From an uncultured Alistipes sp. (lineage in GTDB: Bacteria; Bacteroidota; Bacteroidia; Bacteroidales; Rikenellaceae): a stretch of 64,000 bases of DNA. This document shows positions 13,446 to 54,333 of this stretch, piece after piece. How positions within the stretch are numbered: the first letter of the stretch is position 1; each line of letters opens with the position of its first letter. The DNA lies in contig CASDZP010000005.1 in assembly GCA_949285535.1 (NCBI GenBank), positions 1 to 64,000 of the forward strand. The letters run 5' to 3'. The notes under the pieces were generated by a model. The model was not told the DNA's origin, did no database searches, and saw only the letters and a program-made list of their open reading frames with translations. Both the position numbers and the translations under genes were made by a program.

Positions 13446-13549
13446 TAAAATCCTTTAACTCTCTTAAGAAACGCGTTTCTTTTCTCCTAATTACACCCTA
13501 ATTACCATATAATCCGCATCTTACCATTTCCTAATCTATACATATATAC

Positions 13550-13615
13550 ATAATCACCACATAATTACCACATAATTACCACATAATTACCACATAATTA
13601 CCACATAACTACCTT
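13550..13615. repeat. 11-bp tandem repeat, about six copies
   Basis: Four exact units of ATAATTACCAC (13561-13604) are flanked by one variant on each side (ATAATCACCAC before, ATAACTACCTT after). The array lies between the mannose locus terminator and rnhA. The 11-bp period is close to one helical turn, so every unit would face the same side of the DNA. Confidence 0.9.
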
Positions 13616-13802
13616 TTAACTACCTTCTATCCATACATAACATATATAAGTAAAATACAACGGAATACATGTTTTTTAGGCGTACGGAAACAAGCGTAAC
13701 GAAATGACGGTTAACATGAAATAATATTATCAATGACATGAAATGACAAGCCGACATTATATGATATGAAAATATCGGGTATCTCCCTTTGCGAAAAAAG
13801 AG

Positions 13803-25159: not shown

Positions 25160-26896
25160 ATGAGTGATTTCATAGATAACGTCAATCCGCAGACAGCGGA
25201 TGCGGTGGCATCCAAGATAATGGTCATCGGCGTTGGCGGCGGCGGCAGCAACGCTGTCAGGTACATGTACAATCTGGGTATCCACAACGTTCTGTTCATG
25301 GTGTGCAACACCGATAAACAGGCACTGGACAAAAACCCCGTCCCCCTGAAGATGCAGATAGGACGCGACCTGACAGGCGGTCTCGGCGCGGGCAACATGC
25401 CCGAAAAGGGACGCGCGGCGGCAGAGGAAAGCCGCGACGACATACGCCAGAAGCTCGAAGAGAGCGGCGTGAAGATGGTCTTCATAACCGCGGGTATGGG
25501 CGGCGGAACAGGTACGGGTGCCGCTCCCGTGATTGCTGAGGTGGCACGCGAGATGAACATACTGACGATAGCCATCGTCACGGTGCCGTTCAGATATGAG
25601 GGCGACAGACGAATCAATCAGGCGATTCAGGGTATCGCCGAGATGCGCAAGCATGTCGATTCGTTGCTTATCATCGACAACGAGAACATCAATCTGATAT
25701 ACGGCGACCTCACCTTCTCGGAAGCGTTCGGCAAAGCCGATGACATATTGGCGACAGCGGCAAAAAGTATCGCCGAGATAATAACGAAAGAGCATAAACT
25801 CAACGTCGACTTCGCCGATGTCGAGACGACAATGAGCAACAGCGGCGTTGCGTTGATGGGTTTCGCCACGGCTACCGTCGGTATCGACAACATCGCGACG
25901 ACCCTCACCGAAGAGGCTTTGCTCTCGCCGCTCTTGTCGCAGAACAACATCAACGGAGCCAAAAACCTGTTGGTGAACATTTCATGGAAGGACAAGGAGC
26001 TCAAGATGAGCGAGGTGTACGCCATTATCGGTCATGTTCAGGCGGCGGCAGGCGACAGCGCGTCACTCATCTGGGGTGCGGGCTACGACGAAACGCTGGA
26101 GGACGGCAAAGTCAGCGTCGTAATCGTGGCTACGGGCTTCGAACAGCGTAACATGCAGGGTGAGTGCGAGAAAGACATGTGGCTGGAAAACATTATGGTC
26201 AAGCCTAAAGAGGAGCCCGGCGACGAGACACCCGCTCCCGAGGTCGTAATCGACAACACACCCGCCGTACAGCCAGCAAATATTGTAACGCCGACACCCG
26301 AACGTCCCGCGGAACAGCCGACTGCACCGCAGAAGGTTGTTGTCTCATGGGATGACACCCCCGTTGACGAGGGCAAAGAGAGTCAGGAACCCGACGATGA
26401 CGATTTCGCGTTGGTGGACGACCTTCAGAGGGCGCACAACGAGATATACAGAGAGAAGATGGCGGCATCCGTCTCTCCAATGGCAAACAAAAATGTCGGT
26501 AACGGCGAACGCACCTTCCTGTCGCTGGATGACGAAGATGTAAAGGAAGAGCCCAAGAAAAGCAATGACGACGACATGTTGTCCATGGAAGTGAAGAACA
26601 TGCCGATAGGCTCTACATCACCTATGGGTATGCCGGCAGGATTCTCTCCCGACAACGCGTCACAGGAGCAGACATCGGTAAGAAGAAACCTCTTCTCCGA
26701 GCAGCAGATTGACGCGCCCGCTCCCGATATGCGCAGGTCATCACCCGAACCCTTCAGAAGGCACGTTAATGACCCGTTCGACATGGAGCAGATGGAGAAC
26801 ACCCCCGCATACCTGCGTCGCAACATGCTCATCACCCCTAACCCGAGTGCCAAAAAGAAAGTCGAAAAACTCAACATAAAAGACGAAGATCTTTAG
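25160..26896 (+). CDS. ftsZ: Cell division GTPase FtsZ with long C-terminal linker
   Basis: Tubulin-like GTPase that forms the division ring. The N-terminal GTPase core carries GVGGGGSNAV and the tubulin signature GMGGGTGTGAAP, with the T7-loop region around residue 220. The core ends near residue 340. A long hydrophilic linker follows, rich in Pro, Asp, Glu and Ser (about residues 345-540), and then a C-terminal peptide with TPAYLRRNML and a basic stretch, AKKKVEKLNIKDEDL. At 578 residues it is far longer than the 380-390 of model species and also long for Bacteroidota. The last 60 bases of the gene form one arm of a large palindrome that continues beyond the stop codon. Confidence 0.96.
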   Translation: MSDFIDNVNPQTADAVASKIMVIGVGGGGSNAVRYMYNLGIHNVLFMVCNTDKQALDKNPVPLKMQIGRDLTGGLGAGNMPEKGRAAAEESRDDIRQKLEESGVKMVFITAGMGGGTGTGAAPVIAEVAREMNILTIAIVTVPFRYEGDRRINQAIQGIAEMRKHVDSLLIIDNENINLIYGDLTFSEAFGKADDILATAAKSIAEIITKEHKLNVDFADVETTMSNSGVALMGFATATVGIDNIATTLTEEALLSPLLSQNNINGAKNLLVNISWKDKELKMSEVYAIIGHVQAAAGDSASLIWGAGYDETLEDGKVSVVIVATGFEQRNMQGECEKDMWLENIMVKPKEEPGDETPAPEVVIDNTPAVQPANIVTPTPERPAEQPTAPQKVVVSWDDTPVDEGKESQEPDDDDFALVDDLQRAHNEIYREKMAASVSPMANKNVGNGERTFLSLDDEDVKEEPKKSNDDDMLSMEVKNMPIGSTSPMGMPAGFSPDNASQEQTSVRRNLFSEQQIDAPAPDMRRSSPEPFRRHVNDPFDMEQMENTPAYLRRNMLITPNPSAKKKVEKLNIKDEDL

Positions 26897-27006
26897 CATA
26901 CAAAAGAGAGGCTCAAAATTGTTTTGAGCCTCTCTTTTTGTACGCAAGAATCTTCGTCTTTTATGTTGAGTTTTTCGACTTTCTTTTTGGCACTCGGGTT
27001 AGGGGT
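26834..27006. repeat. 85-bp-arm palindrome made from the ftsZ 3' end
   Basis: The left arm (26834-26918) covers the last 21 codons of ftsZ, its stop and half of the terminator. The right arm (26922-27006) is its reverse complement. The outer 57 bases match perfectly. A block of 11 bases around the ftsZ stop codon differs at 9 positions, and the inner 17 bases form the terminator stem with a 3-base loop. The arms have equal length with no gaps. The right arm directly abuts the dispersed element copy 1. Confidence 0.95.
26902..26940 (+). terminator. ftsZ terminator, centre of the palindrome
   Basis: A 17-bp perfect stem (26902-26918 with 26922-26938) with core GAGAGGCTC/GAGCCTCTC ends in a T-run. 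Because its own left side is A-rich it could stop transcription from both directions. Confidence 0.9.
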
Positions 27007-27163
27007 ACTCCGTAGAGTCTCCGACGGCGCTCCCGCAGGGCTCTCCGAGGGGTCTGCCGACAGCGTTACTTTGTCCCTCGACAAAGTAACCAAAACGAGG
27101 GGGCACAGCCCCTTTTGCCCATGTCATACCCGTTTGGCTCATTGTCTTTTACGAAGTCGGCAT
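27007..27163 (+). repeat. Dispersed element, copy 1
   Basis: First of three copies in this window. A GC-rich head of CTCCG...GTCTCCGAC-like modules (27007-27065) comes first. The conserved part (27066-27163) contains the hairpin TTACTTTGTC/GACAAAGTAA, a second hairpin GGGGC/GCCCC followed by TTTT, and the end GTCGGCATC. TGCCGAC at 27055-27061 and GTCGGCA at 27156-27162 are exact inverted partners. Short open frames cross it, but frames are not kept between copies, so it looks non-coding. Confidence 0.88.
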
Positions 27164-27255
27164 CGCTCGCGCACTCGCCTCTCAAAACAGAATGCTAAAA
27201 GGAGGGATTTGCTCTAAAAATTAATGCCGTTATAAGTATTTACAATAAAAAAGAT

Positions 27256-34707: not shown

Positions 34708-34778
34708 TGACCCATGGTGTAATGGTAACACAGCAGATTTTGGTTCTGTCGTTTTAAGTTCGAGTCTTAATGGGTCAA
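34708..34778 (+). tRNA. tRNA-Gln (TTG)
   Basis: Acceptor TGACCCA pairs with TGGGTCA. Anticodon stem GCAGA/TCTGT encloses the loop TTTTGGT, giving TTG for glutamine. T-loop GTTCGAGTC is present. No CCA is encoded. Confidence 0.95.
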
Positions 34779-34779
34779 C

Positions 34780-34817: not shown

Positions 34818-34897
34818 ATATACGATTCATAAAGTTCTGGGTATCGGGTATTTTTGTGATAAAATACCCGATACCCAGAACTTTATGAATCGTATAT
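34818..34897. repeat. 37-bp-arm perfect palindrome
   Basis: Arms 34818-34854 and 34861-34897 are exact reverse complements around the loop TGTGAT. It begins 3 bases after the tRNA-Gln terminator, and the right arm abuts dispersed element copy 2. No gene is contained in it. Confidence 0.96.
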
Positions 34898-35072
34898 CAC
34901 TTCCGCATGGCTCTCCGAGGGGTCTGCCGACAGCCGCTCCCGCGGGGCACTCCGTGGGCGCCTTCAGCGGGAGTTACTTTGTCACTCGACAAAGTAACCA
35001 AAACGAGGGGGCAAAGCCCCTTTTGGCCATGTCATATCCCATTGGCTCATTATCTTTTACGAAGTCGGCATC
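34898..35072 (+). repeat. Dispersed element, copy 2
   Basis: The GC-rich head (34898-34973) is longer than in copy 1, with an extra CTCCGTGGG-type module. The conserved part runs from TTACTTTGTC at 34974 to GTCGGCATC at 35072. TGCCGAC (34925-34931) and GTCGGCA (35064-35070) are the inverted end pair. It lies between tRNA-Gln and the convergent methyltransferase gene. Confidence 0.88.
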
Positions 35073-35093
35073 GTAACGTGTATCGGCTGAACA

Positions 35094-51040: not shown

Positions 51041-51246
51041 CAAAACAATATTTTTATCGTCGAATAATCGAAAAAACATCTTTTTCAACATAATAAAAAG
51101 AAAAACGAGACGATATATTAATGTCGTCCGACAAAAATTCGGCAGAAAAGCACTCTTCCGAAGCGGGCGGCGGGATAAAAATATTGCATTTCAATACAAC
51201 AAAACATATAATATCCATTCCAAAATTTATTCAAAAACATCAAAAC

Positions 51247-51936
51247 ATGAAAAGAGGTCCGAAAAAAACCATTAACGGAATCGTTCTGGGCGAATCGGGG
51301 GTTTCCACCCGCCGACTGATACTGGAGAAAGCCTCCGAGATTATCAATGTCAAGGGAATGAACGATTTTCGAATCGACACTCTCGCCGCCTCGCTCGGCA
51401 TGAGTTCGGGGAATGTGACTTACCATTTCTCGAGAAAAGAGGAGATTGCGGTGGCCGTATGGCTCTCGTGTCTGCAAGAGATAACATCCTCGCTCGATCA
51501 CTACATATCGCCGTTGATGGACATCAAACAGCTGTTTTTGTTCTATAAATATCTCGTCACGGCAATCTACAAGAACAGGGGAGTGTTCAGACACCGTCTG
51601 AGCGATGTGGGTCTGATAAGAAGCAACCGTGAATCGATAGTGGAGGCGGTAAAGACATTCGAGCACACATACGACAAGAAAATATCCACTCTTATAATAA
51701 ACGGCTACATCGAGCCAGAGCGATACGAAAAGCTGAGAATGCATCTGTTTGAGAACATGGCGACCATAACGGGATGGTGGGTGGATAACCTTTTCGCCAC
51801 CTTCGGCCGTGACCCCGAGGAAGACTCGTCAAAAATATCGGACAGATATGCTCTGACGATGTTGATGACGATAGAGCCTGTATTGACCTACAAAGGTCGC
51901 AAGCAGCTCGACTCGGTATATTCGCTCATTAAGTAA
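51247..51936 (+). CDS. TetR-family regulator, first of a tandem pair
   Basis: Transcription factor with an N-terminal TetR-type helix-turn-helix, residues 20-65 of the 229-residue form: IDTLAASLGMSSGNVTYHFSRKEEIA. The ligand-binding C-terminal domain is helical and unconserved. The start at 51247 (MKRGPKKTING) is preferred because the 42 residues before it (from 51121) look unlike protein and the family normally begins near the helix-turn-helix. It is followed 29 bases later by a related gene. Together they may regulate an unlinked target, since no divergent transporter or enzyme is next to them. Confidence 0.85.
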   Translation: MKRGPKKTINGIVLGESGVSTRRLILEKASEIINVKGMNDFRIDTLAASLGMSSGNVTYHFSRKEEIAVAVWLSCLQEITSSLDHYISPLMDIKQLFLFYKYLVTAIYKNRGVFRHRLSDVGLIRSNRESIVEAVKTFEHTYDKKISTLIINGYIEPERYEKLRMHLFENMATITGWWVDNLFATFGRDPEEDSSKISDRYALTMLMTIEPVLTYKGRKQLDSVYSLIK

Positions 51937-51965
51937 TCACACAACAGACAATCGTATCACAGATT

Positions 51966-52637
51966 ATGACAAAGACTAAAAAAGAGGTGTCGGAAAAATC
52001 TCTCGGCACTCGAAACATCATATTGGCAGGTGCGCTCGAAATGATAAACCGTGACGGAGCGCATAATTTCAGAATAGACAATTTGGCGAACGCGCTCAAC
52101 CTCAGTCCGGGCAACATCACGTATCACTTCTCGAAGAAAGACGACATTTGTGCCCTGCTTTGGAGTCGCATGCTCGAAAAGCTCGACATGTTCGACAAGT
52201 TCACGACCGACCTTCTGGACATAAAGCAGACTTTTATTATAATAAGAGCGGTTAATGCACTTCTCTGGGAGTACAGAGGTGTTGTGATGGCTCGGATATG
52301 CAATGACGACTGTGACAACGGCACATCCGTAACCGACAAGGGTAACGACTTTTTCAAGAAAGCCCATGCCATACTGCGCAAGAACGGTTATATGAAAGAA
52401 GCGGACAACGAGTTGATGGAGAGGGCTGTTCTCGACAGCGAGTGTATGATGTTGCGTTCATGGCTCAATTTTCAGGAGGTTTCCAAAGACACGCAGCACC
52501 CCATACACGATGACAAGGAGGAAGCTGTAAACAAAGCCTCCCTGATGGTCTTGTACGCCATGTACCCCCTCTTCACCGACAAAGCCAAATCCGACTTCGA
52601 CGAGATTTCGGATAAAGTGACCCGAGGTGAAATCTGA
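51966..52637 (+). CDS. TetR-family regulator, second of a tandem pair
   Basis: A 223-residue regulator with the same layout as its upstream neighbour: helix-turn-helix around residues 18-60 (IDNLANALNLSPGNITYHFSKKDDI), then a helical domain. The DNA-binding regions of the two proteins are clearly related: FRID.LA..L..S.GN.TYHFS.K..I is shared. The C-terminal halves have diverged. The pair therefore arose by duplication and could form a heterodimer or act on nested targets. The last 31 bases of the gene form one arm of a perfect 64-bp palindrome, so its 3' end has been copied in inverted form. Confidence 0.87.
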   Translation: MTKTKKEVSEKSLGTRNIILAGALEMINRDGAHNFRIDNLANALNLSPGNITYHFSKKDDICALLWSRMLEKLDMFDKFTTDLLDIKQTFIIIRAVNALLWEYRGVVMARICNDDCDNGTSVTDKGNDFFKKAHAILRKNGYMKEADNELMERAVLDSECMMLRSWLNFQEVSKDTQHPIHDDKEEAVNKASLMVLYAMYPLFTDKAKSDFDEISDKVTRGEI

Positions 52638-52741
52638 CACATATTGTTTTCAATAAAAAACGGAAGACATGAAAAATATGTCTTCCGTTTTTTATTGAAA
52701 ACAATATGTGTCAGATTTCACCTCGGGTCACTTTATCCGAA
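52607..52741. repeat. 64-bp-arm perfect palindrome from the tetR 3' end
   Basis: Arms 52607-52670 and 52678-52741 are exact reverse complements with a 7-base loop, GAAAAAT. The left arm includes the last ten codons and the stop of the tetR gene. The inner part (ACGGAAGACAT/ATGTCTTCCGT plus T-run) would act as terminator for both directions. The right arm directly abuts dispersed element copy 3. Confidence 0.97.
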
Positions 52742-52905
52742 TGCGCTCCGCGGGGTCTCCCGACGGGCACTCCGTGGGGTCTGCCGACAGCCGTTCCCGC
52801 GGGGCTTACTTTGTCCCTCGACAAAGTAAGACAAAACGAGGGGGCACAGCCCCTTCTGACCATGTCATACTCAGTTGGCTCATTGTCTTTTACGAAGTCG
52901 GCATC
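52742..52905 (+). repeat. Dispersed element, copy 3
   Basis: The GC-rich head (52742-52805) shows two tandem modules of about 24 bp (CTCCGCGGGGTCTCCCGAC then CTCCGTGGGGTCTGCCGAC). The conserved part runs from TTACTTTGTC at 52806 to GTCGGCATC at 52905. TGCCGAC (52782-52788) and GTCGGCA (52897-52903) are the inverted pair. One base is inserted relative to copies 1 and 2 after GACAAAGTAA, which breaks any shared frame. Confidence 0.88.
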
Positions 52906-52956
52906 CGATAGCGATAGCCTGCCGTAAAAAAACACGGAAACAAAGGTTAAAAAAGG

Positions 52957-54333
52957 TTAGAGGTTTACTATTCGCTGGTTTACGGGTAACAGGTTGTTTA
53001 CCCTGCGACCGATTCTTTTGGCAAAACCGATTGGAGTGTCACCGTATCGCACCAGCGACAGCCCCTCGGCGTAAAGAGAGGCATCAACGACACCACGGCG
53101 AAGATAGTCGAGAGCGGCATCGAGAGGTAAATCGGTCGTGGCAAAGCGTGTCGCGTCCAAATATGGAGTGAGCGCAAGAGGATGCGATGGTTTAAGCTCG
53201 TCACGAATGACCTGCCCAATGAATAAAGGACTGTATATGACACGAAGACGGGAAGCCGCGCTCTCAAGCAGACGCCGTGAATGTGTAAAGCAGGCATAAG
53301 AGTCGTCCTTGAACTTGAAAAAATCGAACCGCTCATCTCCGACCATATGACGGCGTAACAAAGCCTCCTCACCCTTGGGGCACGCAACGAGGGGCGATTT
53401 CTTGTATCCGCCGCCCGACGCTACAACACCGCCGCCCGATTTTCTCAAAACGGTGACAAAAAGTCCCTCTCCGTCGGTGAGGTGGGGCATGAAGCGGTAA
53501 CATTTATGCGTCACCCCGTCACAAGACGCCTCGGTAACTCTTATGCCGCAACCGTCGGGAAGAGTGACATCGACAGGTGAGGTCTCGAAGTTGCGTATCA
53601 TCCATTCAACCGTATCCTCATTCTCCGTTCTGTTATAGGTGCAGGTGCTGAATATCAATATTCCGCCCTCTTTCAGCGCATCCCACGCGTCGGATATTAT
53701 GTGTCTGCTCCTGTCGGCGCACATATTGACATTTTCAAGGCTCCATTGTTCGAGAGCGGCGGGTTCTTTTCTGAACATACCCTCACCCGAACAAGGGGCG
53801 TCTATCAGCATTAGGTCGAAAGTGCCGCCTAGAGAACCGAAAGCCGACGGTTCTGAGCTTGTGACAATGGTGTTGGCGAGCCCCCACTTGCGGATGTTGT
53901 CCGCCAAAAGCATGACTCTGCCGTTATGTATCTCGTTGGCTACTAAAGTACCCTTATCGCCTATTATGGATGACAGATGTGTGCTTTTGCCTCCGGGAGC
54001 GGCGCACAGGTCGAGAACGGCGACAGGTTGCCGTCCGTCTCTATCCAAAAACTGCTCGGCAAGATAACCGACAAACATCGACCCCGCCTCCTGAACGTAA
54101 TAGTCGCCACCGTGGAAACGAGGGTCGAGAGTGAACGAAGGACGTTTTTCGAGTACATAACCGTCACCGCACCACGCCACGGGGCGGGCGTCATCGGGTA
54201 CGACACCGTGTTTGAACGGGTTGAGCCTTATCGAACACGACGCCTCTCTGTCGAGGGCGGCAAAAAACCGTTCTCTCTCGTCGGCGGGCAAAAGCGGCGA
54301 GACCGTCTCTATAAAGCGTGCGGGCAGATTCAT
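52957..54333 (-). CDS. rRNA cytosine-C5 methyltransferase, RsmF/NOL1-NOP2-Sun type
   Basis: SAM-dependent RNA m5C methyltransferase of the RsmB/RsmF (NSUN) family. The SAM-binding LDLCAAPGGKSTHL (near 110), the catalytic-loop DAPCSGEGMFRK and the second cysteine motif FSTCTYNRTENEDTVEWM are intact. A C-terminal domain of about 160 residues, resembling the RlmI-like PUA domain of RsmF, makes the total 458. Target is probably 16S rRNA (m5C1407 type). Its start overlaps the end of the deoxynucleoside kinase gene by 4 bases. Confidence 0.9.
   Translation of the reverse strand: MNLPARFIETVSPLLPADERERFFAALDREASCSIRLNPFKHGVVPDDARPVAWCGDGYVLEKRPSFTLDPRFHGGDYYVQEAGSMFVGYLAEQFLDRDGRQPVAVLDLCAAPGGKSTHLSSIIGDKGTLVANEIHNGRVMLLADNIRKWGLANTIVTSSEPSAFGSLGGTFDLMLIDAPCSGEGMFRKEPAALEQWSLENVNMCADRSRHIISDAWDALKEGGILIFSTCTYNRTENEDTVEWMIRNFETSPVDVTLPDGCGIRVTEASCDGVTHKCYRFMPHLTDGEGLFVTVLRKSGGGVVASGGGYKKSPLVACPKGEEALLRRHMVGDERFDFFKFKDDSYACFTHSRRLLESAASRLRVIYSPLFIGQVIRDELKPSHPLALTPYLDATRFATTDLPLDAALDYLRRGVVDASLYAEGLSLVRYGDTPIGFAKRIGRRVNNLLPVNQRIVNL

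Follow-up and report, generated by a model that had tools for sequence, protein, structure and literature searches.

The perfect palindrome at the 3' end of a TetR-family regulator gene is one of roughly one hundred inverted duplications in a single genome, which lie on one and the same side of the copies of a small, dispersed, non-coding element of less than 200 nt. These palindromes have a common geometry, are one-sided and locus-specific, show decay, and are absent at two loci in the sister species. The proposal that they are junction scars on one side of the element, generated by fold-back copying of the broken end at its array side, is considered about evenly balanced between right and wrong.

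The tetR palindrome and the adjoining element

The window, i.e., the whole stretch of 64,000 nucleotides that was analyzed, contains three element copies (at 27.0, 34.9, and 52.7 kb), of which the tetR copy is the third, in agreement with the original prediction. The features are as follows.

51121-51936: first gene of the tandem tetR-family pair
51966-52637, forward strand: TetR-family regulator gene, second of the tandem pair (open reading frame; Pfam TetR_N and PF13972)
52607-52670, forward strand: left arm, comprising nine tetR codons and the stop, the 3' UTR, and the first half of a terminator-like hairpin
52671-52677: loop of 7 nt, the palindrome centre
52678-52741, reverse strand: right arm, comprising the second hairpin half and then the tetR 3' end copied inverted
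52742-52805, forward strand: array of mini-hairpin units of 12-14 nt each, of the type N3-TCC(C)-N3'-GGG
52805-52853, forward strand: conserved core, consisting of the hairpin CTTACTTTGTC-CCTC-GACAAAGTAAG, a linker, and the hairpin GGGGC-ACA-GCCCC
52854-52927, forward strand: right part of the element, less conserved in a 97-copy alignment and without a sharp right end
26834-27006: palindrome of copy 1, comprising the ftsZ 3' end, the terminator, and the inverted ftsZ end
27007-27165, forward strand: element copy 1
34818-34897: palindrome of copy 2, with arms of 37 nt and a loop of 6 nt, intergenic and downstream of tRNA-Gln
34898-35073, forward strand: element copy 2

At the tetR site the arms pair at 64 of 64 positions (100% complementarity) around the 7-nt loop, as had been predicted, and the 135-nt palindrome folds as single-stranded DNA with a computed energy of -76.8 kcal/mol (z = -23 versus shuffles). 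Its source sequence is the 3' end of tetR, and at its centre (approximately 52652-52696) lies an unremarkable hairpin that resembles a terminator and contains tracts of A and T. The tetR codons within the left arm read S D K V T R G E I followed by the stop; the stop was thus placed correctly by the original prediction, but the ten codons it had counted are nine complete codons and one base of the tenth. Its description of such arms as very unstable was overstated, since a length of 135 bp lies close to, or under, the limit of what is usually tolerated and the genome encodes SbcD, in answer to the suggested check for an SbcCD-type nuclease. As SbcD was found in all four species compared (G000, the genome under study, and G001, G002, and G003 of the same genus), loss of SbcCD is no evident reason for the survival of the palindromes.

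The element itself extends from 52742 to approximately 52930, directly beside the palindrome. Its mini-hairpin units number 266 in 96 copies, versus 3.2 in shuffles. In the frame tested, the element showed no reading frame that is conserved, and a reverse-strand open reading frame running from the element into the copied gene end was considered and rejected, because it is not conserved. More than 40% of the copies share sequence past the core, and the extent of the element on its right varies between copies; the motif GGGGTACGCTAATCAACTTGTC recurs 130-380 nt to the right of about one-fifth of the copies (L021-L056, L087-L146).

In the 64-kb window, arms that match perfectly over at least 30 nt are found at only three inverted repeats, each of which adjoins a copy of this element. 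The palindrome of copy 1 has perfect outer arms of 57 nt and an inner 17-nt stem that shares their centre, while that of copy 2, the sequence of which is unique in the genome, lies downstream of tRNA-Gln (34708-34779), beyond its intact terminator.

Genome-wide palindromes and the sequences they copy

The genome is a 2.05 Mb draft in 59 contigs (88% complete) with approximately 130 core copies, 101 of which were read and 98 of which had sufficient upstream flank for analysis. An inverted repeat was present on the array side of the element in 97 of these 98, with a different sequence each time, a genome-wide pattern that the original prediction had missed. In an automated scan, arms matching perfectly over at least 18 nt were detected on the array side of 90 of the 98 copies and on the other side of none, and in 1 of 200 random 500-nt control windows; the copies below this threshold displayed shorter or imperfect palindromes on inspection, with a single copy (L114) lacking any. 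The median perfect arm length was 34.5 nt over all 98 copies (maximum 97), and with mismatches allowed arm lengths ranged from 18 to 158 nt (median 86.5), a range exceeded by the arms at the rpoC end (L063). Outer arms and inner stem have a common centre, with short central loops of mostly 3-11 nt. The median gap between the right arm and the first array unit was 3 nt, with 58 of 94 copies at 5 nt or less, and this tight spacing implies that arm and element junction were probably formed together; more than 20 nt of sequence of unexplained origin separates arm and array in about 10 of the 94.

The arms differ at every locus, and the one that was searched genome-wide has no second occurrence, which argues that it is not carried by the element. 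Transport of the arms or of extra segments from a previous site was accordingly rejected, the tested ones being unique except for one 27-nt match at a contig end. Stretches of 20-50 nt of unique sequence lie between right arm and array at L102, L133, L127, L041, L130, and L141. At L096, L032, L023, and L063, pairs of elements with separate palindromes face each other across 450-800 nt in the interval between two genes.

An assembly or amplification artefact could be suspected in a draft of 59 contigs, some of which end in or near repeats, but it is extremely unlikely, given that most arms are imperfect in a mutation-like manner, that they always lie on one side of one element, and that a separately assembled sister species has the same pattern.

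Each left arm is made up of sequence from the adjacent gene or intergenic region, and the right arm repeats this sequence in inverted orientation, with a hairpin, often the terminator, at the centre. By a stricter comparison, about 48 palindromes are located at gene 3' ends, 30 at candidate 5' ends, and 18 at unclear positions including RNA genes. Eleven of the 5'-end copies were confirmed by Pfam, namely those of ileS, lgt, a class-III aminotransferase, transaldolase/FSA, SIR2, kdsB, leuS, thrS, dnaG, an acyl-ACP thioesterase, and a polyprenyl synthetase (synthetase gene names were read from the N-termini). The promoterless inverted copy that had been predicted thus fits tetR but does not describe the family, which includes these 5' ends. 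At dnaG the copied arm appears, by eye, to take in the upstream region. Ends of tRNA and tmRNA genes have been copied as well, and the involvement of 3', 5', and tRNA/tmRNA ends alike indicates that no particular transcript is needed; furthermore, palindrome formation is independent of gene orientation. Terminators and probably some promoters have been duplicated in this way, which may alter expression near housekeeping genes (ftsZ, dnaG, ileS, groEL).

Retrocopying of mRNA 3' ends was rejected, since the early count that placed 92 of 96 copies downstream of a co-directional gene had used too loose an open reading frame rule and 5'-end copies were found. In a broader form of RNA templating, a reverse transcriptase would start on an mRNA 3' end folded at its terminator and switch to element RNA, after which the chimeric cDNA would be inserted. 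A position at a gene 3' end and a central terminator in about half of the copies, the variable right extent of the element, and the presence of one reverse transcriptase in the genome (456 aa; L196:1150-2520, contig C12) are in line with such a route, which is nevertheless very unlikely, as at least 11 copies are at gene 5' ends, copy 2 duplicates intergenic DNA past an intact tRNA terminator, and the arm differences are not adenine-specific. Moreover, the enzyme appears to be of the diversity-generating-retroelement (DGR) type, as judged by its GLPIGNLTSQ motif; an ortholog of similar length is present in G002, a species without palindromes, and the palindrome-bearing G003 yielded none (both genomes being incomplete). 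Because this species distribution does not fit that of the palindromes, the reverse transcriptase was rejected as mobiliser. A Y1 (RAYT) transposase was rejected in the same role because none was found: searches for PF01797 gave no match in G000-G003, with G000 88% complete and the control positive in 5 of 14 genomes.

Decay of the arms and distribution of the element

Arm identity is graded, with quartiles of 0.905, 0.93, and 0.97 and a range of 0.81-1.00, and transitions make up 78% of the arm differences. Gaps number 99 in the copied arm versus 29 in the gene arm, deletions outnumbering insertions in the copied arm. The arm differences by codon position (4.4, 4.9, and 6.8%, with the looser open reading frame rule) would fit neutral decay of the copied arm together with synonymous change in the gene arm. 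As expected, the palindromes thus behave like unselected copies from events of different ages that are not kept identical, and the comparison gave no sign of ongoing arm-to-arm correction. This graded, mutation-like divergence implies that the tetR palindrome is young; of the two explanations offered beforehand for its perfect match, a recent event is supported, and continuing correction is not, in view of arm identities between 0.81 and 1.00 across the genome. With about 100 natural inverted duplications of graded age in one genome, it becomes possible to measure directly how palindromes originate and decay in bacteria.

Core divergence is approximately 1% whatever the age of the arms, also in the part that was not used for finding copies, and no correlation was found between arm age and core divergence. 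A core without decay must be under selection or homogenised. The second half of the element showed a weak trend, with 1.3% divergence beside young arms and 3.0% beside older ones (p = 0.03).

The tandem tetR pair (51121-52637) is kept in all three sister species, and neither element nor palindrome follows the tetR orthologs in G001, G002, and G003; the ftsZ orthologs of these species likewise end without either. In G003, the genes of which are only about 75-82% identical to those of G000, the core is 98% identical over 54 nt, and palindromes of the same architecture accompany 11 of the 14 element copies. G001 and G002 contain a related element, E2, with an array of the same kind and a different core (40 scored matches in each and 184-193 first-look candidates), which is mostly positioned directly after stop codons without such palindromes. 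E2 holds a terminator-like hairpin, for which 18 distinct stems were found in 24 hairpins with 503 of 528 positions paired. The stems of this hairpin (L168, L170, L199-L227) are highly diverse and yet paired, a possible case of arms being perfected. In addition, repeat copies at L170 and L168 (G001, G002) are near sequences that resemble variable or template repeats of DGRs.

A scan of GTDB r220 with the core pattern matched, besides G000, the G003 species alone; the core was absent from the remaining genomes of 200 in the family, the array unit was absent from 118 other genera of the order, and no matches to the element were obtained in phages, plasmids, or viral contigs, also when sought as strain-level empty sites.

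These patterns bear on two further explanations. In the main rival to the fold-back scar, the elements are old, functional intergenic repeats, and their hairpin-rich array would stall the fork and cause a template switch at the nearest hairpin, making the palindromes secondary and recurring. Such residency would agree with a core conserved independently of arm age and with the palindrome-free E2 copies directly after stop codons; it is rather unlikely, as remnants of native sequence are mostly missing between arm and array, the median gap being so small, and the tetR and ftsZ orthologs are without element in all three sisters. In the other explanation, the palindromes would be selected as paired terminators or RNA hairpins, with arms kept identical by arm-to-arm correction. 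The E2 hairpin indicates that stems are kept or made perfect within the genus; identities graded down to 0.81 in G000, a copied arm in which deletions outnumber insertions, and an excess of differences at third codon positions, in line with neutral decay, make this highly improbable for the palindromes.

Proposed fold-back copying and comparison with known systems

Palindromes that are one-sided, hairpin-centred, variable in length, joined to the array, and independent of gene orientation fit fold-back, self-primed DNA synthesis. We infer the break, the polymerase, the joining, and the order of events in such a process as follows. Arrival of the element, or a rearrangement, would expose a DNA end on the side of the array, and the neighbouring strand would fold onto itself at the closest sequence able to form a hairpin, in many cases a terminator, in keeping with the hairpin-centred geometry observed. 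A polymerase would then extend the folded 3' end on its own strand for approximately 20-200 nt, yielding the perfect inverted duplication that is found, and the new end would be attached to the array at its outermost unit, where the junction is tight. Subsequently the arms would decay by ordinary mutation, as their divergence indicates, and the core, which does not decay, may be kept by selection or homogenisation. At the tetR site (52607-52741), the events up to joining would be recent enough for zero accumulated differences. Against the fold-back scar, the non-decaying core fits selection or conversion and not a purely inert insertion; the copies with more than 20 nt between arm and array, the lack of palindromes at E2, and the failure to find an enzyme among the reverse transcriptase and RAYT candidates also count against it. 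An extension of the fold-back scar, proposed tentatively and with less than even confidence, is that the element is a new type of mobile or rearranging element, whose insertion necessarily duplicates the flank inverted on one side by a dedicated hairpin-making mechanism and which has long been active in two or more species of a single Rikenellaceae genus.

Inverted duplications arise when broken ends fold back at short inverted repeats, and also by template switching at quasi-palindromes. Such products are self-templated and perfect at birth, with a short-looped hairpin at their centre, as found here; they are normally sporadic, whereas about 100 are present here in one genome, on one side of one repeat family. 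This same-side link to one repeat points to an insertion or repair route outside the known transposon classes. Group IIC introns insert just downstream of terminator hairpins, and we know of no inverted flank copy made by them; the element differs from them in having no intron-encoded reverse transcriptase. It differs from a MITE in that the arms are locus-specific and not its own, the right side of all 98 copies being free of perfect inverted repeats that reach 18 nt, and from an insertion sequence in its small size and in the absence of a conserved transposase frame in the frame tested. Rfam covariance models applied to 52500-53000 gave nothing above the gathering score, with sub-threshold long-hairpin look-alikes over the palindrome. 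REP/BIME sequences (GTAG- and CGTC-tagged REPs) occur as more than 100 small, non-coding, hairpin-forming copies per genome, are intergenic and frequently lie no more than 20 bp from the 3' end of a gene, and the CGTC REPs have no dedicated transposase (PMC3733652). The element shares their high copy number, intergenic position, non-coding nature, and hairpin formation, but differs in sequence, size, and its mini-hairpin array, and in that no Y1 (RAYT) transposase was found in the genome; no description was found for REPs of a locus-specific inverted flank duplication at nearly every copy. The coding palindromes of Nematomorpha mitochondria, reported in a study that discusses template switching, are many long perfect inverted repeats of unexplained origin in one lineage, with nearly all-or-none identity that suggests active maintenance (PMC6649704), in contrast to the graded identity found here and the adjoining of each palindrome to a repeat element. 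The element is not filed under any known family, and the literature searches made returned no earlier description of such an element or its palindromes. Elsewhere in the window, positions 13485-13624 carry an 11-nt unit, ACATAATTACC, in a tandem array.
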